From Marinitenerispora sediminis (GTDB lineage Bacteria > Actinomycetota > Actinomycetes > Streptosporangiales > Streptosporangiaceae): a DNA stretch of 63,558 nucleotides. The stretch spans positions 1 to 63,558 of the forward strand of contig NZ_QEIO01000008.1 of NCBI RefSeq assembly GCF_003336425.1, given 5' to 3'. Below the pieces are notes generated by a model that was not told where the DNA came from, did no database searches, and saw only the letters and a list, made by a program, of their open reading frames with translations. Shown here one piece after another: positions 9,846 to 27,202 of the stretch. Made by a program: the position numbers and the translations under genes. Position 1 is the stretch's first letter; each line of letters opens with the position of its first letter.

Positions 9846-10205
9846 TCCCGCCCCCAGGCGCGGACCGGCGGGGCCCGGAGGCGTCACCGGTTCGTTACGC
9901 GGCTGCGGAACCGGGCGCGCCGCCGCGGCGTCCTATCGCCGTGCACCTGTGACGGGTCGTGACGGGACCGCCCGCCCCGCACTCGGCCGGATGCCCGCGG
10001 ACGCCCGCCGCCACCCCCCGGAGGCCGCGCGGGCCACCCGCCGCCCGAGGCCACGGACACGCCTGTGACCTGTGCTACGGGTGCTCGCCCAGACGGTGTC
10101 AATCACGTAACCGACGTCCGTTTTGGGCGGAGATGAGGTTGGCGGACTAGTAGCGTAGCTCTGCTGGTCAGCGTGAAGTGCTTGGTGAGGAAAGGGGACT
10201 CGCTG
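9846..10205 (+). other. 360-bp intergenic region upstream of the proline-rich membrane protein
   Basis: No credible gene is present. The last 120 bp are less GC-rich than the surroundings. They contain TTGGGC (10123-10128) and TAGTAG/TAGCGT (10148-10156), which could be promoter elements, although the spacing is not ideal. The ribosome site GAGGAAAGGGG follows just before the next ATG. Confidence 0.35.
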
Positions 10206-11033
10206 ATGGCCCAGCCACCTTACGGTGGTCCTCCTCCGGGGCCGCCCGGGGGACCGACCGGCCCGTCGGGGCCGTACGGCGGACCGCCGCCCGGTCAGCC
10301 GACCGGGCCCCAGGGACCCTACGGTCCGCAGCAACCCGGCCCCTATGGTCCTCCCGGCGCCTACGGTCCGCAGCCGGGCCCCGGAGTCCCGTACGGGGAG
10401 AACCCCTATGTGGGCCAGGCCGCGCCCAAGAGCAACCGCGGGTGCGCGGTGGGCGCCATCGTGGGCGCCGTGGTGCTGGTGGTGCTGCTCATCGCCGGCG
10501 GTATCGGCGCCTACGTCTGGATCAGCGGCAGCGGCGGCGACTACCAGGCCACGCCGGACTGCACCGTCGGCGAGAACTCCGCGCTGGAGTCCCTGCTCCC
10601 CGGATACGAGCAGCAGACCAACCAGGCCATCGACACCGGCGGCCAGGAGTGGTGGGACGGCTACCAGTGCTCCTGGATCACCTCCAGCGACGCCTCGGGC
10701 ATGCCGGCCACCGCGTCGATGATCATCATGCGGAACCAGAACCGCCCCGGCACGACCGGCGCGGAGGAGACCGCCTCCGACCTCGCCAGCCAGTCCGAGG
10801 GGTTCACCACCACCCCGGTGCAGGGGCTCGGTGACGAGGCCGCCTCCTGGTACGACACCGAGTACGAGCTCGGCTGCGTCGGCGTGCGGACGTCGAACAT
10901 CTTCGTCTCGACCTGCTACGACGCCGCGACCGACTACTCCTACTCGTCCTCCATCTCCGAGTCCGAGGCGGTCGCCGGCGCCGAGCAGCTGGCGCGCGCC
11001 GCGGTCGCCGGGATCGAGGCGACACGTTCCTGA
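10206..11033 (+). CDS. Proline/glycine-rich single-pass membrane protein, 275 aa
   Basis: Three parts: a cytoplasmic Gly/Pro/Tyr-rich tail (about residues 1-72, with repeated GPYG units), one transmembrane helix at about 79-103, and an outside domain of about 170 residues. The outside domain has Cys in TPDCTVG, YQCSWI, LGCVG and STCYD, and a GLGDEA motif. Such tails are common on actinobacterial cell-envelope proteins. The outside domain resembles the preceding gene product in its Cys...CxW...GLGDEA order, so they may be distant paralogues. Start ATG 10206 has GAGGAAAGGGG upstream. Function unknown. Confidence 0.78.
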   Translation: MAQPPYGGPPPGPPGGPTGPSGPYGGPPPGQPTGPQGPYGPQQPGPYGPPGAYGPQPGPGVPYGENPYVGQAAPKSNRGCAVGAIVGAVVLVVLLIAGGIGAYVWISGSGGDYQATPDCTVGENSALESLLPGYEQQTNQAIDTGGQEWWDGYQCSWITSSDASGMPATASMIIMRNQNRPGTTGAEETASDLASQSEGFTTTPVQGLGDEAASWYDTEYELGCVGVRTSNIFVSTCYDAATDYSYSSSISESEAVAGAEQLARAAVAGIEATRS

Positions 11034-11080
11034 CCCGGTCCGCCGGGCGGCCGTGCCGCCCGGCCCCGGTGCGGACGCCA

Positions 11081-11111
11081 CGGCGCCCCTCCCGTCGCGG
11101 GAGGGGCGCCG
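11081..11111. terminator. Bidirectional hairpin terminator
   Basis: A perfect 14-bp stem (CGGCGCCCCTCCCG with its complement) and a 3-nt TCG loop, between two convergent genes. It should terminate both. Confidence 0.8.
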
Positions 11112-11154
11112 TCGTGCTGTCCGGGCGGCCCGCCGCCGGCGGGCCGCGGGCGGG

Positions 11155-12267
11155 TCACCAGACGGCGTCCAGGAAGTCCTCGACCGCCGGGGCGGCGTCC
11201 GGCGAGAAGGGGCGTTCGGCGTCCCGCGCTGGTGCGCCGGGGGAGTCGTCGTAGCGGCGGAACACGTGGTCGGCGTCGGCCAGGTCCACCCGTTCGGCGC
11301 CGGGGAGCCCGGTCATCAGCCGGTCGACCTCGGTGCGGGTGACCTGCGAGTCGGCGGTCCCCCACAGGACGAGTACGCGGGTGCTATCGGGGAGGGAGCG
11401 GCCGAGCTGGACCGGGTCCATGGCGTCGATCTCCCGGAGGAACGCCCGGTTGGCCGGAGCGAACAGGGGAGCGAGTTCGGGGGAGAGCGTCTCGGGCAGC
11501 GGATCCCCCGAGCGGATCCGGGCGATGGCGAAGCGGGTGTCGGACAGCAGCCGGTTGGCCGCGGCCGTGTCCAGTGCGCCGGCGCTTTCGCCGTCGCGGA
11601 CCTGTTCGGTGACCTGCCGGTCGAGGAGGTCCAGGTAGCGGGCGCCCACCGGGGCGGCGAGGATCAGCGCGGCCGGAGGCGGCCCGGGGACGACCTGCGG
11701 GGCCCGCAGAGCGAACAGGCTGCCCTCGCTGTGGCCGAGCACGGCCACCCGCTCGGGGTCCACCTCCGGCTGCGCCAGGAGTTCGGCGTAGGCCGCGGCC
11801 ATCTGGTCCTCGAAGAGGGCGTAGTCGATGTCGGCGGTGCCGTCACGGGAGCCGAGCCCGGTGTCGCCCGAGCCGAGCTTGTCGTAGCGCAGCGAGGCGA
11901 CGCCGGCCCCGGCGAGCACCCGCGCGAAGTTGGCGTTGGTGTCGGCCTCCGGCCGGGTGGGGCTGTTGCCGTCGCGGTCGGTGGGGCCGCTCCCCGAGAT
12001 GATGAGCGCGGCGGGTATCCGGCCCTGCGCGCCGTCGGGCAGGGCGAAGGTGCCGTGCACGGTGTCGCCGGCGTCCTCGAACACGACGGCGCGCTCCACC
12101 GGGGTGGCGCCGGGTGACGGGGAGGCGGCCGGTGGCTCGGGCGGGGCCGGGGCGCCGCACGCCGCGGCCAGCAGCAGGGCGCTGGCGGCCAGGAGGGCGG
12201 TCGCACCGCGTGCGGCGGCGCGGAGGCTCGGAACGGGCGGGGGGAACGGAGGGGACGGAAAGGACAC
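11155..12267 (-). CDS. Alpha/beta-hydrolase lipoprotein
   Basis: A 370-residue exported hydrolase. A signal peptide ends in LLAAAC (Cys 37), so it is probably lipid-anchored. The hydrolase core shows SGSGPTDRDGN (oxyanion region), the nucleophile elbow GHSEG with the catalytic Ser, an acidic strand LVLWGTADSQV, and DADHVF supplying the catalytic His. Substrate unknown; an esterase or peptidase is likely. GTG 12267 lies 6 nt after a TACGGT -10-like box, so it is probably leaderless. It is downstream of lexA in the same direction with a 175-bp gap, probably a separate unit. Confidence 0.83.
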   Translation of the reverse strand: MSFPSPPFPPPVPSLRAAARGATALLAASALLLAAACGAPAPPEPPAASPSPGATPVERAVVFEDAGDTVHGTFALPDGAQGRIPAALIISGSGPTDRDGNSPTRPEADTNANFARVLAGAGVASLRYDKLGSGDTGLGSRDGTADIDYALFEDQMAAAYAELLAQPEVDPERVAVLGHSEGSLFALRAPQVVPGPPPAALILAAPVGARYLDLLDRQVTEQVRDGESAGALDTAAANRLLSDTRFAIARIRSGDPLPETLSPELAPLFAPANRAFLREIDAMDPVQLGRSLPDSTRVLVLWGTADSQVTRTEVDRLMTGLPGAERVDLADADHVFRRYDDSPGAPARDAERPFSPDAAPAVEDFLDAVW

Positions 12268-14379: not shown

Positions 14380-14525
14380 TTTAGTAGGTACCGGATCATT
14401 TCGGGGCGTCGTCCCGGACAGATGTGGAACACCAACGTCGGCACGGACGCCGCCCCGCTCGCGCGGCGCGCCCGTGCGGGTGCGGGAGGCATCGGCGATG
14501 CGGATGTGGGGGGAGGCGTGCCGGC

Positions 14526-14993
14526 ATGCACTGTCCGTTCTGCCGCCATCCTGACACCCGGGTGATCGACAGCCGGTCGACCGACGACGGCGCGGCGATC
14601 CGCCGCCGCCGGTCCTGTCCGGCCTGCGGCCGCCGCTTCACCACCCAGGAGACCGTGCTGCTCATGGTGGCCAAGCGGTCCGGGGTCACCGAGCCGTTCT
14701 CCCGGGGCAAGATCATCGCCGGGGTGCGGCGCGCCTGCCAGGGGCGGCCGGTCACCGAAGACGCACTCGCGAAGCTCGGCCAGCAGGTCGAGGAGGAGAT
14801 CCGCGGCCGCGGCCTCGCCGAGGTCCCGGCCCACGAGATCGGGCTCGCGATCCTCGGCCCGCTCCGGGAGCTCGACGAGGTGACCTACCTCCACTTCGCG
14901 TCGGTGTACCGCGGCTTCGAGTCCCTGACGGACTTCGAGAACGAGATCGCGATGCTGCGCGCGGACCGGGCCAGAGCCGGCGGGGCCGAGTAG
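14526..14993 (+). CDS. nrdR: Transcriptional repressor NrdR
   Basis: A 155-residue regulator of ribonucleotide reductase genes. The N-terminal zinc ribbon has Cys 3, 6, 31 and 34 (HCPFC...CPAC), followed by the conserved [15 protein letters not shown]. An ATP-cone domain (about 46-136) senses ATP/dATP. ATG 14526 has GGGGGAGG upstream. It lies 108 bp before nrdJ and probably forms one operon with it, under the two NrdR boxes. Confidence 0.96.
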
Positions 14994-15101
14994 GCCGAGC
15001 GCACACGGCCCCGCCCCGCGTACGTGCCGCACCGGAGCACCGGGCGACCGCGCCGGGCGATGCGCCAATCGGGTATGGGCGAGATATCAGGGGGAGTGGA
15101 A

Positions 15102-17921
15102 ATGACGGAGACCACCAGCGGCTCAGCGACACGCAAGGGCAGGGGGCAGCCGCAGCGGAAGGGACTCAGGATCCGGCGTATCTTCACCTCGCCCGGCACC
15201 CACCCCTACGACGAGGTCGAGTGGGAGCGCCGAGACGTCGTCATGACCAACTGGCGCGACGGGTCGGTCAACTTCGAGCAGCGCGGCGTCGAGTTCCCGG
15301 CCGCCTGGTCGATGAACGCCACGCAGATCGTGGCCAGCAAGTACTTCCGTGGCGCCCTCGGCACCCCCGAGCGCGAGTGGAGCCTCAAGCAGCTCGTGGA
15401 CCGCGTGGCCGGCATGTACACCGCCACGGGACGCGAGAACGGCTACTTCGCCGGCGACGAGGACGCCGAGATCTTCGACCACGAGCTGAAGTACGCCCTC
15501 GTGCACCAGCTCTTCAGCTTCAACTCCCCGGTGTGGTTCAACGTCGGCACCGCCTCCAAGCAGCAGGTGTCCGCCTGCTTCATCCTGTCCGTGGACGACA
15601 CCATGGAGTCGATCCTCGACTGGTACAAGGAGGAGGGGATCATCTTCAAGGGCGGCTCGGGCGCGGGGGTGAACCTCTCCCGCCTGCGCTCCAGCAAGGA
15701 GCTGCTGTCCTCGGGCGGCACCGCCTCGGGGCCGGTGTCCTTCATGCGCGGCGCCGACGCCTCCGCCGGCACCATCAAGTCCGGCGGCGCCACCCGCCGC
15801 GCGGCCAAGATGGTGGTCCTCGACGTCGACCACCCCGACATCGAGGAGTTCATCGAGACCAAGGCACGCGAGGAGCACAAGATCCGGGCGCTGCGCGACG
15901 CCGGGTTCGACGTCGACCTGGGCGGCTCCGACATCGTCAGCGTGCAGTACCAGAACGCCAACAACTCGGTCCGGGTCTCCGACACCTTCATGCGCGCGGT
16001 GGAGACCGGCTCGGAGTTCGGGCTCACCTCCCGCACCACCGGCGAGGTCATCGCCACGGTCGACGCCAAGAAGCTGTTCCATTCCATGGCCCGCGCCGCG
16101 TGGGAGTGCGCCGACCCGGGGCTGCAGTACGACGACACCATCAACGACTGGCACACCACCCCCGAGAGCGGCCGGATCACGGCGAGCAACCCCTGCTCGG
16201 AGTACGTGCACCTGGACAACTCCTCGTGCAACCTGGCGTCGATCAACCTGCTGAAGTTCCTGCGGGACGACGACACCTTCGACATCGAGAACTTCGTCCG
16301 GCTCACCGAGCTGATCATCACGGCGATGGACATCTCCATCACCTTCGCCGACTTCCCGACCGAGAAGATCGGCGAGACCAGCCGCGCCTTCCGCCAGCTG
16401 GGGATCGGCTACGCCAACCTCGGTGCGCTGCTGATGGCCACCGGCCACGCCTACGACTCCGACGGCGGCCGGGCGCTCGCGGCGGCCATCACCTCCCTCA
16501 TGACCGGCACCGCCTACAAGCGCAGCGCCGAGCTGGCCGGAGTCGTGGGCGCCTACGACGGCTACGCCAAGAACGCCGACGCCCACAAGCGCGTCATGCG
16601 CAAGCACGCCGCCGCCAACGACGACCTCCGCACGGTCGGCGCGATGGACCGCGAGATCGCGACCGCCGCCACCCGCGCGTGGGAGGACTGCCTGAAGACC
16701 GGCGAGCGCAACGGCTGGCGCAACGCCCAGGCCAGCCTGCTCGCCCCCACCGGCACCATCGGCTTCATGATGGACTGCGACACCACCGGCATCGAGCCGG
16801 ACTTCTCGCTGGTCAAGTACAAGAAGCTGGTCGGCGGCGGCTCCATGCAGATCGTCAACCAGGCGATCCCGCGGGCGCTGAAGAACCTCGGCTACCAGCA
16901 GGAGCAGATCGAGGCCATCGTCGAGTACATCTCGGAGAACGGCCACGTCGTGGACGCTCCGGGCCTGCGGCAGGAGCACTACGAGGTGTTCGACTGCGCC
17001 ATGGGCAAGCGCTACATCAAGCCCATGGGCCACGTCGAGATGATGGCGGCCGTGCAGCCGTTCCTCTCGGGCGCGATCTCCAAGACGGTGAACGTCCCCG
17101 AGGAGGCGACCGTCGAGGACTTCGAGCACATCTACTTCCAGGGCTGGAAGCTCGGCCTGAAGGCCCTCGCCGTCTACCGCGACAACTGCAAGGTCGGCCA
17201 GCCGCTCTCCACGGCCAAGAGCGAGGAGAAGGCCGAGCCGGAGCCCGCGGTGGTCGAGGTCAACCGCCCGGTGCGGCGCCGGCTGCCCAAGAAGCGGCCG
17301 AGCCAGACCGTCTCCTTCACGGTGGGCGGCGCCGAGGGCTACATCACCGCCGGGTCCTACCCCGACGACGGCCTCGGCGAGGTCTTCATGAAGCTCGGCA
17401 AGCAGGGCTCGACCCTCGCCGGCGTCATGGACGCGTTCTCGATCGCCATCTCCATCGCCCTGCAGTACGGCGTCCCGCTGGAGACCTACGTCGAGAAGTT
17501 CACGAACATGCGGTTCGACCCGGCCGGCATGACCGACGACCCGGACATCCGCATGGCCCAGTCGGTGGTCGACTACATCTTCCGCCGCCTGGCGCTGGAC
17601 TACCTCCCCTACGAGGAGCGCGCCGCCCTGGGCGTCCTCTCGGCGGAGGAGCGCGCGGCCCAGCTCGCCGGCGAGGACCCCGCGCAGGTCGCCGCCCAGG
17701 TGGAGTCCTACGCCCAGTCCGCCCCGGTCAGCGCGGAGGACGCCGAGTCCGAGCGCCCGTCCCGCGAGACCCGGACGGCGCACACCACGACGGAGCTGCT
17801 GGAGCTGAAGCAGGGCTTCACCGCCGATGCCCCGCTCTGCGTCACCTGCGGCACCAAGATGCGGCCGTCGGGCAGCTGCTACGTGTGCGAGGGCTGCGGA
17901 TCCACGAGCGGGTGCAGCTAG
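15102..17921 (+). CDS. nrdJ: Vitamin B12-dependent (class II) ribonucleotide reductase
   Basis: A 939-residue adenosylcobalamin-dependent reductase making deoxyribonucleotides with or without oxygen. Family features seen: FNSPVWFNVG, GGSGAGVNLS, the active-site NPCSE loop (about residue 365), APTGTIG near 550, and a C-terminal Cys-rich tail (CVTCGTKM...CYVCEGCGSTSGCS) that relays electrons from thioredoxin. ATG 15102 (GGGGGAG upstream) fits the family start better than 15024. Follows nrdR in the same operon. No cobalamin riboswitch was recognised upstream. Confidence 0.97.
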   Translation: MTETTSGSATRKGRGQPQRKGLRIRRIFTSPGTHPYDEVEWERRDVVMTNWRDGSVNFEQRGVEFPAAWSMNATQIVASKYFRGALGTPEREWSLKQLVDRVAGMYTATGRENGYFAGDEDAEIFDHELKYALVHQLFSFNSPVWFNVGTASKQQVSACFILSVDDTMESILDWYKEEGIIFKGGSGAGVNLSRLRSSKELLSSGGTASGPVSFMRGADASAGTIKSGGATRRAAKMVVLDVDHPDIEEFIETKAREEHKIRALRDAGFDVDLGGSDIVSVQYQNANNSVRVSDTFMRAVETGSEFGLTSRTTGEVIATVDAKKLFHSMARAAWECADPGLQYDDTINDWHTTPESGRITASNPCSEYVHLDNSSCNLASINLLKFLRDDDTFDIENFVRLTELIITAMDISITFADFPTEKIGETSRAFRQLGIGYANLGALLMATGHAYDSDGGRALAAAITSLMTGTAYKRSAELAGVVGAYDGYAKNADAHKRVMRKHAAANDDLRTVGAMDREIATAATRAWEDCLKTGERNGWRNAQASLLAPTGTIGFMMDCDTTGIEPDFSLVKYKKLVGGGSMQIVNQAIPRALKNLGYQQEQIEAIVEYISENGHVVDAPGLRQEHYEVFDCAMGKRYIKPMGHVEMMAAVQPFLSGAISKTVNVPEEATVEDFEHIYFQGWKLGLKALAVYRDNCKVGQPLSTAKSEEKAEPEPAVVEVNRPVRRRLPKKRPSQTVSFTVGGAEGYITAGSYPDDGLGEVFMKLGKQGSTLAGVMDAFSIAISIALQYGVPLETYVEKFTNMRFDPAGMTDDPDIRMAQSVVDYIFRRLALDYLPYEERAALGVLSAEERAAQLAGEDPAQVAAQVESYAQSAPVSAEDAESERPSRETRTAHTTTELLELKQGFTADAPLCVTCGTKMRPSGSCYVCEGCGSTSGCS

Positions 17922-18050: not shown

Positions 18051-18073
18051 TGCTGGCCGGGAGGTGGTCCGCC

Positions 18074-18490
18074 ATGGCCGCTGTTCACTTTGATAGTTAC
18101 TCCGAGGCTAGATCCCACCTGAAGGATCTCCTGGACGCGGCGGAGCGAGGCCGTGTCGCCACTATGCGCAGGGAGGCCGCTACAGCGGCAGTCGTTGACG
18201 CGGCGCGGTTGCGGCACTATCTGGCGACTGTGACTCCGGCACGCGCGCAGGTCGTACCCGAGGCTGACGGCTGGTCGGTCTTCATCGACGGACTGCCGGT
18301 CGCCGCCGACGGAGCGACCTTCGAGGAAGCCGTCGTCGAGATGGTCGATGCGCTGCGCGAATACGCGGAGGACTGGCAGGACCACCTGCTCGACGCGGTG
18401 GACCACCGGGAGAACTGGGGGCTTGTCCAGTTGATCACTCTCAGTGATGACCAGCAGCTACGGGCCTGGCTACTGGGAGAAGGAGGATGA
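18074..18490 (+). CDS. Antitoxin with Phd/YefM-like N-terminus and HicB-like C-terminus
   Basis: A 138-residue protein. Residues 1-50 (SYSEARSHLKDLLDAAERGR, then AAVVDAARLRHYL) resemble the DNA-binding Phd/YefM antitoxin fold. Residues about 65-105 (GWSVFIDGLPVAADGATFEEAVVEMVDALREYAEDW) resemble the HicB partial RNase-H fold. The acidic C-terminus may bind toxin. ATG 18074 follows GGGAGG. Its stop overlaps the next start (ATGA), the usual antitoxin-first order. The two-part reading is from sequence pattern only. It should repress its own promoter through the upstream palindrome. Confidence 0.7.
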   Translation: MAAVHFDSYSEARSHLKDLLDAAERGRVATMRREAATAAVVDAARLRHYLATVTPARAQVVPEADGWSVFIDGLPVAADGATFEEAVVEMVDALREYAEDWQDHLLDAVDHRENWGLVQLITLSDDQQLRAWLLGEGG

Positions 18491-18909
18491 TCTGGCCGCA
18501 GCCGACGCGCCGCGATCACGAGCGGTTCTGCCAGGTCGAGGGATGGACTCTCGTGCGCAACGCCCGCGGACGCACGGGCACTCACCACATCACATACGAG
18601 CTCGTGCTGACTGACGGGCGGGTACTGCGGACGCGAGTCTCCCATCCGGTCGACCGGACGCGCTACGGCCGCGGCATCTGGCAGCACATTCTCCGTGACC
18701 AGCTCGATGTTGACGAGGCGGTCTTCTGGGCCTGTGTCCGTGACGAGGTCCTACCCGATCGAGGACGCCCGGCCGTGCCGCGGGACGCCCTCCCCGCTGA
18801 TCTGGTGCATCTGCTGATCACCCAGGTGGGGCTGTCCGAGGCCGAGGTGGCGAAGCTGGGCAAGGAGGAGGCGATCGCACGGCTCACGCGCTACTGGACC
18901 GAAGGGTGA
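18487..18909 (+). CDS. Putative toxin, HicA-like RNA-targeting protein
   Basis: A 140-residue basic protein overlapping the antitoxin gene by 4 bp. The core GWTLVRNARGRTGTHHITYE, then DGRVLRTRVSHP and GIWQHILRDQL, has the strand-strand-helix order and conserved Gly-x-His-His of HicA-type mRNA interferases. It is longer than usual HicA (about 60-80 aa), with an extra C-terminal helical part (about 95-140). Relatives are often labelled cytotoxic translational repressors. Toxicity is inferred from the operon form and fold resemblance. No downstream terminator was recognised before the next gene. Confidence 0.6.
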   Translation: MIWPQPTRRDHERFCQVEGWTLVRNARGRTGTHHITYELVLTDGRVLRTRVSHPVDRTRYGRGIWQHILRDQLDVDEAVFWACVRDEVLPDRGRPAVPRDALPADLVHLLITQVGLSEAEVAKLGKEEAIARLTRYWTEG

Positions 18910-19074
18910 CACGGGTGACGCGCCGCCGTCGGTAATGGATGGTTATGTTCTCGCCACCTGCCGGACCGTAACCCTGTGGGACGATGCCAGGACTTCTGAG
19001 CAGGCACGCCGGAACCGACCCGCGGCTGCCCGCGTCGGAGTCATCGTCTTCCTCGTCCCAAGGAGTAGGTGCCC

Positions 19075-20715
19075 ATGTCCTTCGCGCAGTCCGTGCGTGG
19101 GGCCGCCGGAGCGATCGCCCAGGGCGGCGATCCTCGGGAGGCGGTGTCCAACGCGATCAGCCAGACGACGGAGGGGTTCGGACTCGACCCGGGTGATTTC
19201 CTCGCCGCCCGTGAGCAGGGCGCCTCGGTGGGCACCCGGATCGAGCAGCAGACGACCTCGCTCAACAACGCCGGCGAGGTGCTGAACCGCAGCAAGGTCG
19301 AGGTCGGCGCCGGCGGCCCGGTGCACGTCATCTCGCCCATGGTGATCCCGCGCGGCCGGACCCTGGCCGCCATGCTGCCGGTGATCCTGCTGGCCATCGC
19401 CGGCGTCGTCGGCGCCGTGCTCACCGCCCCGGTCCCCAACGCCGCCCTCCTCCTCTTCGGCCCGCACTTCTGGCTCATCATCGCCGCCGTCGCGGCCTTC
19501 ATGTGGTGGCGCCAGGGGATGGTCATGGTGCCGGACGGCTGCCAGGCGCTGATCACGAAGTTCGGCAAGCTGGAGCAGATCGTCGGCCCCGGCCGGGTCA
19601 CGCTCCTGAACCCCTGGAAGCGGGTCTCCTACATCGTCAACACCACCCGGGAGTACCCCTTCAACGCGCCGATCCGCGAGGCGCCCACCAAGAGCGGCGT
19701 CAAGGCGTCGGTCGACCTCTTCCTGCAGTTCCGGATCGAGAACCCCGAGGAGTTCATCTTCGTCCTCGGCGCGGTCCAGGGCTTCCAGGACAAGCTGAAC
19801 AACGCGATCAGCGAGACCACCCGCAGCCTCATCTACGACCAGCAGGCCTCGGACATCTACGACCTGGTCGGTGAGAACACCGCCCGGCTGCTCGACCAGC
19901 TCAACCAGCAGTTCCTCCCGGCCGTGCGGCTGACCAACGCCAACATCACGCACGCCGAGCCGTCCAGCCAGGAGTACCGGATGGACCTCGCCGCGCCGGA
20001 GATGGTGCGGGTCGCCAAGGAGGCCTACACCTACGAGTACGAGCTGCAGCTGCGCAAGGAGCAGAACGAGGGCGACCTCAACAAGGAGCTCGCCTCGCTG
20101 AACGAGACCCTCTCGGCGATCCAGGCCGACATCGCGCAGTACCAGGCGCAGATGGACACCGCCCTGGAGCGCGAGACCAACCGGGCCCGGGCGCTCGCCC
20201 GGCAGCGGTTCGTCGAGGCCGAGAGCACCGCGAACGCCAACGCGGCGCTGCTCCAGGCGCAGGCGCTGGACATCCGCGCCGTGAGCGCCGCCGAGGCGCC
20301 GGAGATCCTCAACTACCGCTTCCAGCAGGACCTGCTGGACAAGCTGGAGTCCGTGGCCGAGAGCCTGCCGCAGATGGTGCAGATCGGCGACGGCAGCACC
20401 GCCAGCGTCGACTTCCTCCAGGTGGCGCGGCAGATCATCGGGGGTGCCGACGAGGAGCTGTTCTCCGAGGCGGACATGGCCGCCATCCGCACCCGGCTGG
20501 CCGACATCTCCGAGCGCATCGCCGCGCGCGAGGCCGAGATCTCCGAACTGCTGGCGGCGGAGCGGTCCACCGTCGAGGCCCCCGACCCCGAGCGGGTGCC
20601 CGACGTGCCCGGCGCGGACCGGGTGGAGGAGATCCGCCAGTCGGTCTCCGACGACGTCATCGGCGAGCGGTTGGGCGGCATCGCCGGCACCGCGCGGGAG
20701 CAGGAGGGTCAGTAG
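19075..20715 (+). CDS. SPFH (band 7) membrane protein A
   Basis: 546 residues: a soluble N-terminal 95, a two-helix membrane hairpin (about 97-117 and 125-147), an SPFH domain from about 148 (GMVMVPDGCQALITKFGKLEQIVGPG...), then a long charged helical/coiled-coil segment (about 330-430; KEQNEGDLNKELASLNETL, ALERETNRARALARQRF) and a second helical tail rich in Arg/Glu. SPFH proteins build ring or cage oligomers around membrane proteases or microdomains. ATG 19075 follows AAGGAG. The next SPFH gene begins at the base right after its stop, so the two form an operon and probably a hetero-oligomer. Confidence 0.82.
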   Translation: MSFAQSVRGAAGAIAQGGDPREAVSNAISQTTEGFGLDPGDFLAAREQGASVGTRIEQQTTSLNNAGEVLNRSKVEVGAGGPVHVISPMVIPRGRTLAAMLPVILLAIAGVVGAVLTAPVPNAALLLFGPHFWLIIAAVAAFMWWRQGMVMVPDGCQALITKFGKLEQIVGPGRVTLLNPWKRVSYIVNTTREYPFNAPIREAPTKSGVKASVDLFLQFRIENPEEFIFVLGAVQGFQDKLNNAISETTRSLIYDQQASDIYDLVGENTARLLDQLNQQFLPAVRLTNANITHAEPSSQEYRMDLAAPEMVRVAKEAYTYEYELQLRKEQNEGDLNKELASLNETLSAIQADIAQYQAQMDTALERETNRARALARQRFVEAESTANANAALLQAQALDIRAVSAAEAPEILNYRFQQDLLDKLESVAESLPQMVQIGDGSTASVDFLQVARQIIGGADEELFSEADMAAIRTRLADISERIAAREAEISELLAAERSTVEAPDPERVPDVPGADRVEEIRQSVSDDVIGERLGGIAGTAREQEGQ

Positions 20716-22161
20716 ATGGCGAACTCAGGCGCGAACGCGCGCGGCTCCTCCAGCATCAAGGAGTCGCTCGCCTCATGGGGCGACATCGCGCGCCTGCTGC
20801 GCGGCGGGGACCAGGGCCAGCTCGTCCCGGTCGTGATCCCCCGCGACGGCCGCGGGCTGCGGTGGCTGGTGCTCGTCTGGATCGGGCTGTGGCTGCTCGG
20901 TGTCTCCCTGATCGGGGCAGCCAACGCCCTGGCCGGCGGCCTGGTCGTCGGCACGCTGGTGCTCTCCCTCCTCAGCCTGCTGCTCGCCGGGCTGTGGTGG
21001 TGGCGCTCCTCGATCGTGGAGATCGAGCAGGGCACCACCGGCGTGCTCACGAAGTTCGGCGCGGTGGTCGGTGTCCTGGACCCGGGCCGGCACTACCTGT
21101 GGCACCCGTGGGCCCGGGTGGACTTCGTCGTGGACACCTCCACCGAGATCCCGTACACGGCGCCGGTCCAGGCGTGCCCCACCCGGGAGAACGTCCCGCT
21201 CAAGTCCATCGAGTTCTTCCTGAAGTTCCGGATCATCGACGCGGTCGCCTTCGTGCGCACCATCGGGGCCAGCAACTTCGACCTCGTGCTGTCCAACGCC
21301 GTGCAGGACGCCATCCGGCAGCGCAGCCGCCAGGTGCGGACCGAGGGCGCCTACGACCTGCGCGGCTCCGACGTCGCGGACATGCAGGACCTGCTGAACC
21401 GCCAGCTCAGCCGGTACGGCGTGCGGATCATGGGGTGCAACATCCCCGACGTCCAGCTGCCCAACCAGTACCAGCAGCACCTCGCCACCCGCGAGCGGGT
21501 CGCCAAGGAGCTGGTGGCCTACGAGCAGGAGTGGGAGCTCACGCGCAAGCGGCGGATCGACACGCTGCTCATGGACATCGAGCGCTCCAAGAAGACGCGC
21601 GACGCCAAGATCGTCGAGGTCAACGCGGCCCTGAACAAGGCCCGCAAGGACGTCGCCCAGATGCTGGAGGAGCAGGAGACCGAGGCCCAGCGGGTGCGGT
21701 ACGAGATCGAGACGCGCGGCCGGGCGGACCTCGTCGCCGCGCAGAACGAGGCCAAGGCGCAGCAGCGCCTCGCCACCTCCTACCGGGACAACCGCGCCGT
21801 GCTGCAGTACGAGCTGGCCCGGCGGCGGCTCGACGTGGGCGCCCGGCTGGCGGAGAACGCGCCGCAGCCGGTCGTGGTGCGGACCGAGGGCGGGGTGGGC
21901 GACTCCTCCGCGCTGTCCACGCTGCTGCTCGCCCAGCTGCTGCCCGACCTGGGCGAGCGGCGGTCCGCCCGCCCGGCGGCCGCCCGCGGCCAGGCCGCGG
22001 TGGAGGCGTCCGACGTGTTCCGCCACGCCCAGGGCGCGGTCGCCGCGGCGGCCGAACGCCAGCAGGACCTCCAGCAGCAGTACCAGCAGGAGCAGGAGGA
22101 GGCCATGCGCCAGCAGTTCGAGAACGGCGAGGGGTACGGCCGGCGGTCCAAGCGGCGCTGA
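20716..22161 (+). CDS. SPFH (band 7) membrane protein B
   Basis: 481 residues with the same plan as its neighbour: VVIPRDGRG just before a two-helix hairpin (49-70, 74-97), an SPFH domain from about 99 (VEIEQGTTGVLTKFGAVVGVLDPGRHYLWHPWARVD), then a long coiled coil (about 250-360, Lys/Glu/Arg-rich) and a Gln-rich end (QQDLQQQYQQEQEEAMRQQ). ATG 20716 directly follows the previous TAG. The pair recalls HflK/HflC or prohibitin couples, but sequence identity to those looks low, so function is open. Confidence 0.82.
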   Translation: MANSGANARGSSSIKESLASWGDIARLLRGGDQGQLVPVVIPRDGRGLRWLVLVWIGLWLLGVSLIGAANALAGGLVVGTLVLSLLSLLLAGLWWWRSSIVEIEQGTTGVLTKFGAVVGVLDPGRHYLWHPWARVDFVVDTSTEIPYTAPVQACPTRENVPLKSIEFFLKFRIIDAVAFVRTIGASNFDLVLSNAVQDAIRQRSRQVRTEGAYDLRGSDVADMQDLLNRQLSRYGVRIMGCNIPDVQLPNQYQQHLATRERVAKELVAYEQEWELTRKRRIDTLLMDIERSKKTRDAKIVEVNAALNKARKDVAQMLEEQETEAQRVRYEIETRGRADLVAAQNEAKAQQRLATSYRDNRAVLQYELARRRLDVGARLAENAPQPVVVRTEGGVGDSSALSTLLLAQLLPDLGERRSARPAAARGQAAVEASDVFRHAQGAVAAAAERQQDLQQQYQQEQEEAMRQQFENGEGYGRRSKRR

Positions 22162-22175
22162 CCCGGGTCCGCGGA

Positions 22176-22218
22176 CACGACGAGGGGGCGCTCCCGGCGG
22201 GGGCGCCCCCTCGTCGTG
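22176..22218. terminator. Long bidirectional hairpin terminator
   Basis: A perfect 16-bp stem (CACGACGAGGGGGCGC with its complement) and an 11-nt loop, between the SPFH operon and a convergent small gene. Confidence 0.85.
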
Positions 22219-22262
22219 CCCGGGCGGCCGGGCGACGGAGCGCCGGGCCCGCCGGGCCCGGG

Positions 22263-23395: not shown

Positions 23396-23849
23396 GGTGG
23401 GCGGCCCCCAAAGGCGAGTCGTGGCTGGTCGGGTGGTGTGGTGCGGACGGCGGCCGGACGTGTCACGGCCGTGTCGCAACGGCGGCCGCGCACGGCGGCC
23501 AGACCATCAGGATAGGGGAGCGGCGGGGCCTGCTCGGGCCGCTTCGCCGAAGCCGCAGCGGCCCGCGGCGGCACCGGGCGCCCGCCCGCGGGGCTATCCG
23601 GCCGGACGGCAGCCGTGCCCCGTGGCCCAGGCCGCCGCCGCCCGGCGGCCACCCGCCGCAGCACCACCGGAACCGCCCCCACTCCGCACCGTCTACCCGC
23701 GGTCAGGGAGAAACTACCGAACGCCACCGCCGGGCGCCATGGGCACACGCGGGTCCGGCCCTCCCGCGGCCCGCGCCGGCGCCCCGGGGGCCGGCGCGGT
23801 GCCGCGGAGCGGGCTCCGCCGCCCGCCGGAGCGGTCTACGCTGGGGAGC
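23396..23849. other. 454-bp divergent intergenic region before rnhB
   Basis: Very GC-rich. Reverse-strand open frames here are Pro/Arg/Gly repeats without credible starts and look noncoding. The only element noted is TACGCT (23837-23842), the likely -10 of rnhB. Nothing else is recognised. Confidence 0.4.
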
Positions 23850-24536
23850 GTGCCAGCGAAGTCCTCCGTCATCCCGCCCACGTACACGCTCGAACGGGAG
23901 CTCGCCGCCGGCGGCGCGACCCTCGTCGCCGGGGTCGACGAGGTGGGGCGCGGCGCCTGGGCCGGTCCCGTCGTCGTGTGTGCGGCGGTCACCGACGGCT
24001 CCGAGCCGCCGGAGGGCCTCACCGACTCCAAGAAGCTCACCCCGAAGCGGCGCCTGGCCATGGGCGACCTCGTCCGCCCGTGGGTGCGCGACCACGCGTT
24101 CGGCCACGCCACCCCGGCCGAGATCGACGAGTTCGGGATGACCGAGGCGCTGCGCCGCGCCGCCGTGCGGGCCCTGGAGGGCCTGGCCGCCCGCCCCGAC
24201 GGCGTCATCCTCGACGGCAAGCACGACTACCTCGGCGCGCCGTGGCCGGTGCGCACCCAGATCCAGGCCGACCTCACCTGCGTGACGGTCGCCGCCGCCT
24301 CCGTGCTCGCCAAGGTGTACCGCGACGCCCTCATGGCCGAACTCGACACCGACTTCCCCGGCTACGGGTTCGGCAGCGCCGCGGGATACCCCTCTCCGGC
24401 GCACCGGGAGACCCTCGCGGAACTGGGGCCCACTCCGCACCACCGGATGTCCTGGTCCTATCTGGACGACCTGCCGAAATGGCGCCACCTGCGCCGGCCG
24501 CGGCCCGGCCCCGGCGGGCAGCTCAGCCTGCTCTGA
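23850..24536 (+). CDS. rnhB: Ribonuclease HII
   Basis: Removes RNA from RNA/DNA hybrids and single embedded ribonucleotides. 228 residues. The catalytic motifs are present: DEVGRG near 30, DSKKLT near 60, LDGKHD near 117-122, and [14 protein letters not shown] near 145. GTG 23850 lies 7 nt after TACGCT; GGGGAG also lies in that gap, so initiation could be leaderless or weakly Shine-Dalgarno driven. Confidence 0.95.
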
Positions 24537-24778
24537 GGCGGATCGCCCCCGAAACGCCGTGCCTCCGAGGGGCGGGCGGTCCCTGTCCAAGCCGTGCGCC
24601 AGGCGGCAGTATGGGGCGGTGCGCACCGCGCCCGCCCCCGGGCCGCGCGGCGGCGCGCCGTCCGGACCCGGCGGATCCCTCCGAGGGGCGGGCGCGGCGT
24701 CCGAGTGCGCTATACAAGGGTGGCGACGACGGCCGCGGCGGGGAGCATCCGCGGGTCACAGGGGCGAAGGGGGCAGCG

Positions 24779-27202
24779 ATGCCGCGTGACGACCGACCCC
24801 GGACCACGGGCCGACCGGCGGCGCCGCCGCCGCTCCAGCGGCTGCGGTCCCTCTACGACCGGTATCCGCCGCGCTCCCGGCTGCTCGCCGGCCTCGTGGC
24901 GGTGACGGTCGCCGCGCTGGCCGCGTTCCTCGCGGACGTCTCCGTGCTCCTGGTCGTCACCGCGACCGTGCTGGTGCTCGCGCTGTTCGCCGCGCTGATG
25001 CGCTCCGGCGAGGCGGTGGCGACCGCGCTGGTCTGCGCCGTCTGGCTGGCCGTCGCCTACCCCCTGTTCCAGATCCCGCTCGCGGGCGCGCCGATCGTGC
25101 TGGTGCTGCTGCTCCTCCCGCCGCTCGTCACGGTGGCCGCCACCCGGATCCGCGAGTTCCCGGTGTGGCACACCACGCTGCTGGCGCTGCTGGTCGGACT
25201 GATCGTCGGCCTCGCCGTGGCCCTGACCAGCATGCTCACCGACGCGGTCCCGCCCGCCGTCGGCATCACGTGCACGGTGGCCGCCGCCGGCGCGGCGCTG
25301 CTGTGGCGGGCCGCCGCCGCGTACCGGCTGCGGCGGGAGCTGCGGGGCATCGCCGCGGAGGCGGCCGGGCCGCCCGCCGCGGACCCGCCGGGCTCCCGGC
25401 GCCGGGAGCGGCACGCCGGCGGCCCGGCCGGCGGGTACCGCGACCGCCACGGAGGCCGCGACGGCGAGCCGGTGCCGCCGGTCCCCGTTGACGAGGCGCT
25501 GGCCGAACTGGAGGGGATGATCGGCCTGGAGCCGGTCAAGCAGCAGGTCCGCGCGATAGCGGCGTCCATCGAGGCGGCCCGGCTGCGCGCCGACGCCGGC
25601 TACGCGGTGGACAAGCCGCTGCGCCACCTGGTGTTCTCCGGGCCGCCCGGCACCGGGAAGACGAGCGTGGCCCGCACGCTCGCCACCATCTTCCACTCCT
25701 TCGGCCTGCTGCCGTCCCCGCACGTGGTCGAGGCGCAGCGCGCCGACCTGGTGGGGGAGTACCTCGGCGCGACGGCCATCAGGACGAACGAGCTCGTGGA
25801 CCGGGCGCTCGGCGGCGTGCTGTTCATCGACGAGGCGTACTCCCTGGTCAACGACGGCGACGGCCAGCCGGACCGGTTCGGCAACGAGGCGGTGCAGACG
25901 CTGCTCAAGCGCGCCGAGGACGACCGCGACCGGCTCGTCGTCATCCTGGCCGGGTACGAGGCGGAGATGGACCGCTTCCTCGCCTCCAACCCCGGCCTCG
26001 CCTCGCGGTTCGCCACGCGGGTGACGTTCCCCAGCTACCGGCCGGAGGAGCTGCACAGCATCGCCGAGCACCTGTTCCAGCAGCGGGGCGACGTGCTGGA
26101 CGAGGAGGCCGGGCCGGTGCTGCGGGCCCGCTTCGACGAGGCGGCGCGGCGCGGGGCGGTGGACGAACTGGGCAACGGCCGGTTCGTGCGCTCGCTGGTG
26201 GAGAAGGCGGCGGAGGCCCGCGACGTCCGGGTGGTCACCTCGGGCGAGGCCGGCCGGCAGCCGGCGGCCGAGGACCTGGTCACGGTGCGCGCCGGCGACA
26301 TCGCGGCCGCCTACCAGCAGCTGACCGAGCGGCTGCCCGGCTTCAGCAGGACGCCGGACCTGGCCGAGGCGCTCGCCGAGCTGGACGACATGATCGGCCT
26401 GGAGCCGGTCAAGCGCCAGGTCCGCTCGATCGCCGCCCAGCTCCAGGTGTCCCGGCTCCGGGAGGGGCAGGGCCTGCGCACCCAGCTGCCGATGCGGCAC
26501 TTCGTCTTCGTCGGCCCGCCCGGCACCGGCAAGACCACGGTGGCCCGCATCCTCGGCCGGGTGTTCGCTGCTCTCGGGCTGCTCAACCGCGCGGAGGTCC
26601 AGGAGGCGTCCCGGGTCGACCTGGTCGGCGAGCACCTCGGCGCCACGGCGGTGAAGACCAACAAGCTGGTCGACCGGGCGCTGGGCGGTGTGTTGTTCGT
26701 CGACGAGGCGTACTCGCTGGCCAACCCCGGCTACAGCGGGGGCGACGCGTTCGGCGCCGAGGCCATCCAGACGCTGCTGAAGCGCGCCGAGGACGACCGG
26801 TCCCGGCTCGTCATCGTGCTCGCCGGCTATCCGGGGGAGATGGACCGGTTCCTGGCGAGCAACGCCGGACTCGCCTCCCGCTTCAACGTCCGGGTGGCGT
26901 TCCCGAGCTACTCCCCGGACGAGCTCACGGAGATCGCCGAGGCCGTCGCCGGGCAGACCGGCGACGTCTTCGAGGAGCAGGCGCGCGAGGACCTGCACCA
27001 GATCTTCGGGTACGTGTGCGCGGCCGGCTGGATCGACGAGCTGGGCAACGGGCGGTTCGCGCGCTCGCTGTTCGAGAAGGCGTGCTCCTACCGCGACCTG
27101 CGGGTCGCCGAGGAGCTGGGCGACGCCGCCACCGCCGACGACCTCACCCGCGTCACGAGCGCGGACCTGCGGCAGGCGTACGCCGAGATCACCCAGACGT
27201 GA
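24779..27202 (+). CDS. Membrane-bound double AAA+ ATPase (CbxX/SpoVK type)
   Basis: 807 residues. The first 180 carry about six membrane helices (36-52, 54-73, 77-95, 103-121, 133-151, 160-178), then an Arg/Gly-rich linker. Two CbxX/CfqX-type AAA+ modules follow: EGMIGLEPVKQQV with Walker A GPPGTGKT at 288-295 and Walker B VLFIDEAYSL, and DDMIGLEPVKRQV with Walker A at 579-586 and VLFVDEAYSL. Both keep the DELGNGRFVRSL sensor region. Family members are Rubisco activase CbbX, SpoVK and the ATPase of type VII secretion; a fused membrane domain is unusual. ATG 24779 follows AAGGGGG. Role unknown. Confidence 0.85.
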   Translation: MPRDDRPRTTGRPAAPPPLQRLRSLYDRYPPRSRLLAGLVAVTVAALAAFLADVSVLLVVTATVLVLALFAALMRSGEAVATALVCAVWLAVAYPLFQIPLAGAPIVLVLLLLPPLVTVAATRIREFPVWHTTLLALLVGLIVGLAVALTSMLTDAVPPAVGITCTVAAAGAALLWRAAAAYRLRRELRGIAAEAAGPPAADPPGSRRRERHAGGPAGGYRDRHGGRDGEPVPPVPVDEALAELEGMIGLEPVKQQVRAIAASIEAARLRADAGYAVDKPLRHLVFSGPPGTGKTSVARTLATIFHSFGLLPSPHVVEAQRADLVGEYLGATAIRTNELVDRALGGVLFIDEAYSLVNDGDGQPDRFGNEAVQTLLKRAEDDRDRLVVILAGYEAEMDRFLASNPGLASRFATRVTFPSYRPEELHSIAEHLFQQRGDVLDEEAGPVLRARFDEAARRGAVDELGNGRFVRSLVEKAAEARDVRVVTSGEAGRQPAAEDLVTVRAGDIAAAYQQLTERLPGFSRTPDLAEALAELDDMIGLEPVKRQVRSIAAQLQVSRLREGQGLRTQLPMRHFVFVGPPGTGKTTVARILGRVFAALGLLNRAEVQEASRVDLVGEHLGATAVKTNKLVDRALGGVLFVDEAYSLANPGYSGGDAFGAEAIQTLLKRAEDDRSRLVIVLAGYPGEMDRFLASNAGLASRFNVRVAFPSYSPDELTEIAEAVAGQTGDVFEEQAREDLHQIFGYVCAAGWIDELGNGRFARSLFEKACSYRDLRVAEELGDAATADDLTRVTSADLRQAYAEITQT

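Follow-up and report, generated by a model that had tools for sequence, protein, structure and literature searches.

The stretch of Marinitenerispora sediminis DNA analysed here (63,558 nucleotides of contig NZ_QEIO01000008.1; hereafter the window) contains two adjacent genes, A and B, that encode homologous SPFH proteins, are inherited as a pair, meet in a conserved tight junction and, in the Nocardiopsaceae, stand downstream of a conserved promoter element. Phylogenetic analysis indicates that, within the reference set used, A and B arose by a duplication independent of that of HflK and HflC. We lean towards an explanation in which the two proteins would be obligate partners in one hetero-oligomeric SPFH cage, with a cytosolic dome of about 15 heterodimers that in the Nocardiopsaceae would be made under envelope stress.

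A and B are related SPFH proteins that occur together

Both proteins exceed the gathering cut-off of the Pfam Band_7 model (50.6 bits for A and 81.0 bits for B versus 23.6), a profile search that a preliminary description of this DNA had proposed, and both are members of the SPFH/Band 7 superfamily, with an anchor predicted before the domain and a coiled coil after it. Profile comparison aligns residues 55–454 of A with residues 13–409 of B (31% identity, E 6e-37), a match that covers the VIPR segment and the hairpin. AlphaFold monomer models, built from 59-sequence alignments of A and of B, place an N-terminal part, a two-helix hairpin, the SPFH domain, a long helix and a C-terminal helix in the same order in both. 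The profile comparison and the two models thus bear out the common order of VIPR segment, two hydrophobic helices, SPFH domain and long coiled coil that the preliminary description had read from the letters. Near-copies were dropped at 91% identity (76 sequences reduced to 58), and four loci with broken or cut genes (L085, L087, L088 and L097) were excluded from the protein alignments. Fold matches in the PDB are subunits of HflK/HflC, stomatin, prohibitin, erlin and flotillin; the VIA-align lists also hold unrelated ribosomal and FliL folds at lower Z.

A and B differ from each other in the N-terminus, the hairpin and the C-terminus. Specifically, the hairpin of A contains the motif F-G-x-H-x-W (residues 128–133; window 19456–19473, forward strand), which is invariant in 59 rows and is not found in B, and which may serve in binding a partner or ligand; the hairpin loop of B is variable. 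Mean column identity in the first coiled coil is 0.91 for A and 0.88 for B versus 0.83 and 0.86 in the SPFH part, figures that come with no control for usual values.

The preliminary description had allowed that the pairing might be unique to one strain, which is not what we found. Of 61 genomes from the window's family, 27 carry both genes and 34 neither; the pair is also present in 21 of 39 genomes of a family from another class (f19), where three genomes (G369, G406 and G408) have one gene split or fragmentary, and in 7 of 150 genomes of a Streptomyces-like family (f3), which the named loci suggest to be the Streptomyces family itself. Pooled over the three families, 55 of 250 genomes carry both genes and 0 of 250 carry one alone. 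Nine candidates were scored per genome in the f3 search, and five further f3 genomes gave one weak match each (E 4e-5 to 7e-4) to a different SPFH region. A search with A as query also picks up B genes of full length, with E values no higher than 1e-26. A sample of 346 genomes across the phylum, with at most four candidates scored per genome, yielded 29 matched genomes: the window's own, 2 from f3 and 17 from f19 with the pair, and 9 with a single weak match.

We also examined named loci, the best 80 of 162, which are mostly from Nocardiopsis, Streptomonospora, Thermobifida, Streptomyces, Janibacter and Ornithinimicrobium; several are the same records as family genomes, so the samples overlap. 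B lies directly after A in 78 of these 80, and the other two (L087 and L097) stop at a contig edge. In the window the stop codon TAG of A (20713–20715) abuts the start codon ATG of B (20716) with zero spacer, exactly at the coordinates first described, and across 93 of 94 loci the distance from stop to start, with start codons picked by script, is −17 to +11 nucleotides, mostly 0, −1 or −4. This junction recurs across many genera, in agreement with the initial assignment of the two genes to one operon. The exception is L085 (Nocardiopsis halophila, 10001–11753), in which the reading frame of A is broken, either in the sequence or in the assembly. Distances among A sequences correlate with those among B sequences (r 0.95, 92 loci), a value inflated by shared ancestry.

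Phylogeny points to a duplication separate from HflK and HflC

We built a maximum-likelihood tree from 48 SPFH proteins, namely nine A, nine B, four HflK and three HflC sequences and 23 others. A and B share a single clade (support 100/99), in which the A sequences (100/99) and the B sequences (99/96) are each monophyletic, whereas HflK and HflC fall into a clade of their own (94/84). Approximately unbiased tests on this tree reject a grouping of A with HflK (p 1.1e-5) and of B with HflC (p 1.3e-5). A 39-protein tree, made without nine reference rows of the larger tree (L003 among them) and without three long rows (L164, L177 and L178), gave the same result; Sinorhizobium HflC was not found in the stretch taken for the reference set. 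Because the two proteins share a clade of their own, each side of it is monophyletic and the HflK and HflC groupings are rejected, we read the pair as the product of a separate duplication. Together with the profile alignment, the tree upholds the ancient duplication suggested in the preliminary description.

The profile models agree. A and B score 24.4 and 17.2 bits against the NCBIfam hflK model, whose cut-off is 159.4, and no hflC model match is listed for either at E up to 1. E. coli HflK scores 415.6 bits and the E. coli controls pass; of the other three SPFH proteins of this genome, two score 110 and 118.6 bits against hflK and the third (L003) gives no match. With the rejected groupings, these scores sustain the early impression that the two proteins look unlike HflKC.

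Predicted sidedness and ring size

Two hydrophobic segments were detected, at the threshold used, in 92 of 94 B sequences and 53 of 96 A sequences. The loop between them lacks lysine and arginine in all 53 of these A sequences and in 79 of 92 B sequences, and just before the hairpin there are on average 2.3 such residues in A and 3.3 in B. Basic residues mark the cytosolic flanks of membrane segments (the positive-inside rule), so both ends of the hairpin would face the cytosol. This suggests that the SPFH dome lies on the cytosolic side, as in stomatin and opposite to HflKC. A long run of hydrophobic residues also precedes the domain of another SPFH protein of the genome (L003; genome G000, contig C406, 1333–2673, reverse strand), which means that A and B may not be alone in having a hairpin-like anchor.

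When aligned with MAFFT, the coiled coils of A and B each exceed those of HflK and HflC by about 35 residues. Gao et al. 2025 fitted the number of subunits in a ring as 0.1782 times the length of the first coiled coil plus 10.22 (PMC12624060). Starting from the 24 subunits of HflKC, this fit and the extra residues predict an A/B ring of about 30 subunits.

A conserved promoter element upstream of A in the Nocardiopsaceae

When 18 Nocardiopsaceae loci were aligned over the DNA that precedes A, three main conserved blocks stood out: GGAACC, CGTC and the ribosome-binding site. Of 46 loci from the Nocardiopsaceae (a group that includes one locus recorded as Glycomyces fuscus), 45 carry GGAACC-N16-CGTC within 200 nucleotides of A, always with a spacing of 16 and 61–79 nucleotides before the start, versus 0.08 occurrences expected from the rest of the same loci; in the window it spans 19011–19036. 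The exception (L098) has GAAACC-N16-CGTC. The 46 loci are related to one another, yet the DNA surrounding the motif is not conserved. The element has the -35 AAC, the -10 TC and the spacing published for sigma-E, an extracytoplasmic function (ECF) sigma factor, in Streptomyces (table 1 of PMC6767563), where S. coelicolor sites of like form include those of pspA and mreB, and Corynebacterium glutamicum sites given in PMC10012870 (GGAAC-N16-CGTT) resemble it. A sigma-E type ECF factor would thus read the A promoter, and the footprint supports a link of the pair to envelope stress for the Nocardiopsaceae, not for the whole group.

The same motif is present in both Ornithinimicrobium loci, in S. 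otsuchiensis (L066) and in G045 (the same record as L075). Among 96 upstream regions searched for other promoter forms, SigB-like, ECF GGAA(C/T)-GTT and HrdB forms were each found 0 times and ECF TGAAC-CGT once. A second upstream element, GTGGGAnGAT, stands at about -100, its position nearly constant, in 10 of the 46 loci from the Nocardiopsaceae and in 3 of the 7 from Janibacter, with a background of 1 match in 3.0 Mb. In Streptomyces loci, a similar GTGTGGGAT stretch lies upstream of A.

A proposed two-subunit cage

In the explanation we lean towards, A and B would be the two obligate subunits of a single hetero-oligomeric SPFH cage; that the assembly would be a membrane cage is what the predicted fold and the homology suggest. 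A two-helix hairpin would anchor each subunit with both ends in the cytosol, which would put the dome on the cytosolic face of the membrane. Coupled translation would yield matched amounts of A and B, and about 15 heterodimers, with A and B in alternation, would close into a ring whose wall would be longer than that of HflKC. In the Nocardiopsaceae the operon would be transcribed from the sigma-E type promoter, so the cage would most likely be made under cell-envelope stress. It may corral or protect membrane proteins, or support or organise the membrane; human stomatin, described as associating with aquaporin-1 and a urea transporter (PMC12407830), offers a precedent for such a mode of action. 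We hold more tentatively a broader reading, in which a two-subunit SPFH cage re-evolved outside HflK/HflC. This cage, an obligate assembly of about 15 A/B heterodimers, would sit at the cytosolic side of the membrane in actinobacteria, lack partner genes for NfeD or FtsH, and fall in size between QmcA/erlin (26) and flotillin (44). At least one lineage would assemble it in response to envelope stress, and gene transfer may have carried it from one class to another.

Several observations weigh against the cage as proposed. Confidence in the AlphaFold monomers of A and B is modest (predicted local distance difference test 75.5 and 75.9, predicted template-modelling score 0.46), and the TM-scores that Foldseek gives for both models, normalised by query length, reach only about 0.3. 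The second hydrophobic segment of A is weak, with one segment seen at threshold in 43 of 96 A sequences, and after the B hairpin acidic residues (2.3) exceed basic ones (1.0). The ring size depends on one published linear fit. The ECF motif is found in 0 of 7 Janibacter, 0 of 1 Ruania and 0 of 15 f19 loci, and in 1 of 10 and 1 of 14 loci of two Streptomyces groups, the latter at an odd position; it is also not at the expected place in 11 further genomes of the window's family, in a Nonomuraea record and in 7 genomes of the Streptomyces family, where starts were chosen by script and are unsure at least in L194 and L198. If the sixth base is left free, the window contains four copies of the motif, so only the footprint counts as evidence. 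Finally, the S. coelicolor sigma-E paper (PMC6767563) mentions neither SPFH nor stomatin, flotillin or band 7 in its accessible text.

Alternative explanations

A and B could instead each build a homo-oligomeric SPFH scaffold of its own, with nothing but the operon in common, which we think unlikely. Stomatin and QmcA are described as homo-oligomers (PMC12624060), the other three SPFH genes of the genome each lie on a contig of their own, and A and B are unlike at both termini and in the hairpin; however, the two genes are present in an all-or-none manner, their junction is near-fixed, and both coiled coils are lengthened to the same extent and are more conserved than any other part of their proteins. 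We give similarly little credence to A and B being divergent HflK and HflC, or their functional equivalents, which would form an extracytoplasmic cage around FtsH and slow its proteolysis. The best PDB sequence matches of A are HflK, the top Foldseek hit of both models is an HflK/C entry, the HflK and HflC clade is sister to A and B in the tree, if weakly (84/89), and A and HflK have the segment APEI in common, just ahead of the second coiled coil. Yet the trees reject both cross-groupings, the hflK scores are far under the cut-off, and the anchor is predicted to be a hairpin, not a single helix, with loop charges that oppose an SPFH domain outside the cytosol. FtsH itself was found in every one of 61 genomes from the window's family, whether or not they carry A and B; this counts for the FtsH reading, but FtsH does not follow the pair. 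In the window's genome the two FtsH matches are on contigs C125 and C48, whereas the window is C409, and the single NfeD match is on C14, beside a different SPFH gene, so the initial observation that no ftsH or nfeD gene is adjacent to the A/B operon holds. The pair thereby also differs from SPFH1/SPFH2, which have an NfeD gene as operon partner.

It also seems improbable to us that the pair is a horizontally moving accessory cassette, serving for example phage or drug tolerance, and not a general membrane organiser. Its distribution is patchy (7 of 150 genomes in the Streptomyces-like family), A sequences of the other class nest among those of the Actinomycetes in two trees (99/99 and 100/99), and the local identity of A is 60–65% to f19 (57% for one fragment) and 64–67% to f3, beside 57–61% and 70% for FtsH. 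Over the whole length, however, the drop between classes is the larger one (mean A distance 0.45 versus 0.38 for Streptomyces), which makes the hint of transfer weak, and B sequences of the other class do not nest among the Actinomycetes. Neither A nor B has a PADLOC match, 50,697 phage records gave no match, and two scans of viral contigs gave 46 and 170 pattern matches with 0 confirmed relatives; the sole hit in a plasmid collection is an 11.85-Mb Nonomuraea record. In 23 loci the G+C content of the pair differs from that of its flanks by no more than 4 points, and its neighbours are the same in all seven Nocardiopsaceae representatives. Horizontal transfer between classes may have occurred.

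Features and gene neighbourhood

Table 1. Coordinates of the A/B operon and its elements in the window.
Feature	Position	Strand	Basis or remark
Gene A, SPFH protein, 546 residues (N-terminal extension, two-helix hairpin, SPFH domain, long coiled coil, C-terminal helix)	19075–20715	+	
Gene B, SPFH protein, 481 residues (short N-terminus, two-helix hairpin, SPFH domain, long coiled coil, Q-rich C-terminal helix)	20716–22161	+	
-35 element GGAACC, putative ECF (sigma-E type) promoter	19011–19016	+	phylogenetic footprint: 45/46 Nocardiopsaceae loci, constant spacing 16
-10 element CGTC, same putative promoter	19033–19036	+	form matches S. coelicolor sigma-E sites tabulated in PMC6767563
Ribosome-binding site of A, AAGGAG	19060–19065	+	sequence; conserved in upstream alignment
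Predicted two-helix membrane hairpin of A, residues 97–147	19363–19515	+	F128, G129, H131 and W133 invariant in 59-row alignment
SPFH/Band_7 match of A	19528–20025	+	
First coiled coil of A, about residues 299–407	19969–20295	+	most conserved segment of A
Ribosome-binding site of B, AGGAGGG, within the final codons of A	20702–20708	+	sequence
Predicted two-helix membrane hairpin of B, residues 49–96	20860–21003	+	
SPFH/Band_7 match of B	21019–21516	+	
First coiled coil of B, about residues 250–357	21463–21786	+	
20-bp hairpin 3′ of B, probable operon end	22176–22218	+	fold of 22159–22230

The operon probably ends at the hairpin directly after B; folding of 22159–22230 gives −61.2 kcal/mol (z −5.4). 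This hairpin is absent from the output of a pattern-based terminator scan, because the scan requires a T run and the hairpin has none.

We clustered the open frames within about 9 kb of A in 31 representative loci (of 96 with A), keeping families found in at least 5 loci. The preliminary description had proposed to check the conservation of the neighbourhood. Gene neighbours are kept inside the Nocardiopsaceae (7 of 31 loci), and only there, and across families no third gene was found at a conserved place in the 31 loci. The remaining clusters are scattered genes without a fixed place, which we take to be ABC-transporter-, TetR- and SDR-like, and opposite-strand shadow frames of A and B.

Upstream of A, on the forward strand, lie genes that are presumably ribonucleotide reductase-like (15024–17921) and NrdR-like (14424–14993), within a synteny common to the Nocardiopsaceae. 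At 18071–18906 (forward strand), a Phd-like antitoxin gene (PF12910, 31.2 bits) is followed by a gene for 140 residues; the two are possibly a toxin–antitoxin pair, and they are not among the conserved neighbour families of the 31 loci. Downstream, a long open frame at 23615–27202 (forward strand), with two similar ATPase-like stretches (GPPGTGKT twice), is kept in the Nocardiopsaceae loci.

Relation to known systems

Among papers on actinobacterial SPFH proteins and bacterial hetero-oligomeric cages, with subscription papers mostly outside reach, we found none on the A/B pair; the accessible text of PMC6554272 and PMC7159879 holds nothing relevant to it, and the Streptomyces protein SCO2834 is described as adjoining cslA-glxA (PMC9040799). 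The pair would point to a component of the actinobacterial envelope-stress response on which we found no literature. Beyond the preliminary description, the present analysis adds the ECF-type promoter, the predicted cytosolic side of the SPFH domain and the longer coiled coil.

Operons with several SPFH genes are already known besides HflKC, including PaFlo5-7 (PMC13086221) and SPFH11a/b (PMC2636767). SPFH11a/b is described as a small subfamily whose two members, like A and B, are always adjacent in one operon and are said to stem from duplication (Hinderhofer et al. 2009, PMC2636767); compared by description only, it could be the same pair, but SPFH11b is said to have no coiled coil, whereas B has one of about 108 residues. 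The PaFlo5-PaFlo6-PaFlo7 operon of Pseudomonas aeruginosa likewise holds several SPFH genes, is patchy and is thought to have been transferred; unlike A/B, it has three genes and belongs to the Pseudomonadales, a comparison made by description, and the word 'actino' does not appear in the accessible text of that paper (PMC13086221). In Bacillus subtilis, the SPFH genes floT, yqfA (FloA) and ydjI are placed in the regulon of the ECF factor sigma-W (PMC3498285) and thus resemble A/B in being under an ECF sigma factor, but their operon partners are NfeD-type or PspA genes and they form no such pair; YdjI is described as connecting PspA to the membrane (PMC8581546). The stomatins of human and Pyrococcus, which are the best PDB sequence matches of B, share the hairpin-type anchor and the cytosolic dome predicted for A/B, but stomatin is an oligomer of a single protein and A/B is an obligate gene pair.

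Why some SPFH cages employ two alternating subunits is an open question to which A/B is relevant. A/B and HflK/HflC (SPFH3) each consist of two SPFH paralogs in one operon, derived from duplication, with a coiled coil and the same subunit fold. They differ in that the duplications are distinct by the approximately unbiased tests, the coiled coil is about 35 residues shorter in HflK/HflC, and HflKC has a single membrane helix, with its dome lying outside the cytosol, where A/B has a predicted hairpin and cytosolic dome. FtsH is the known partner of HflKC, whereas none is known for A/B. HflK and HflC are known to form an alternating cage of 24 subunits, and A/B would form one of about 30.

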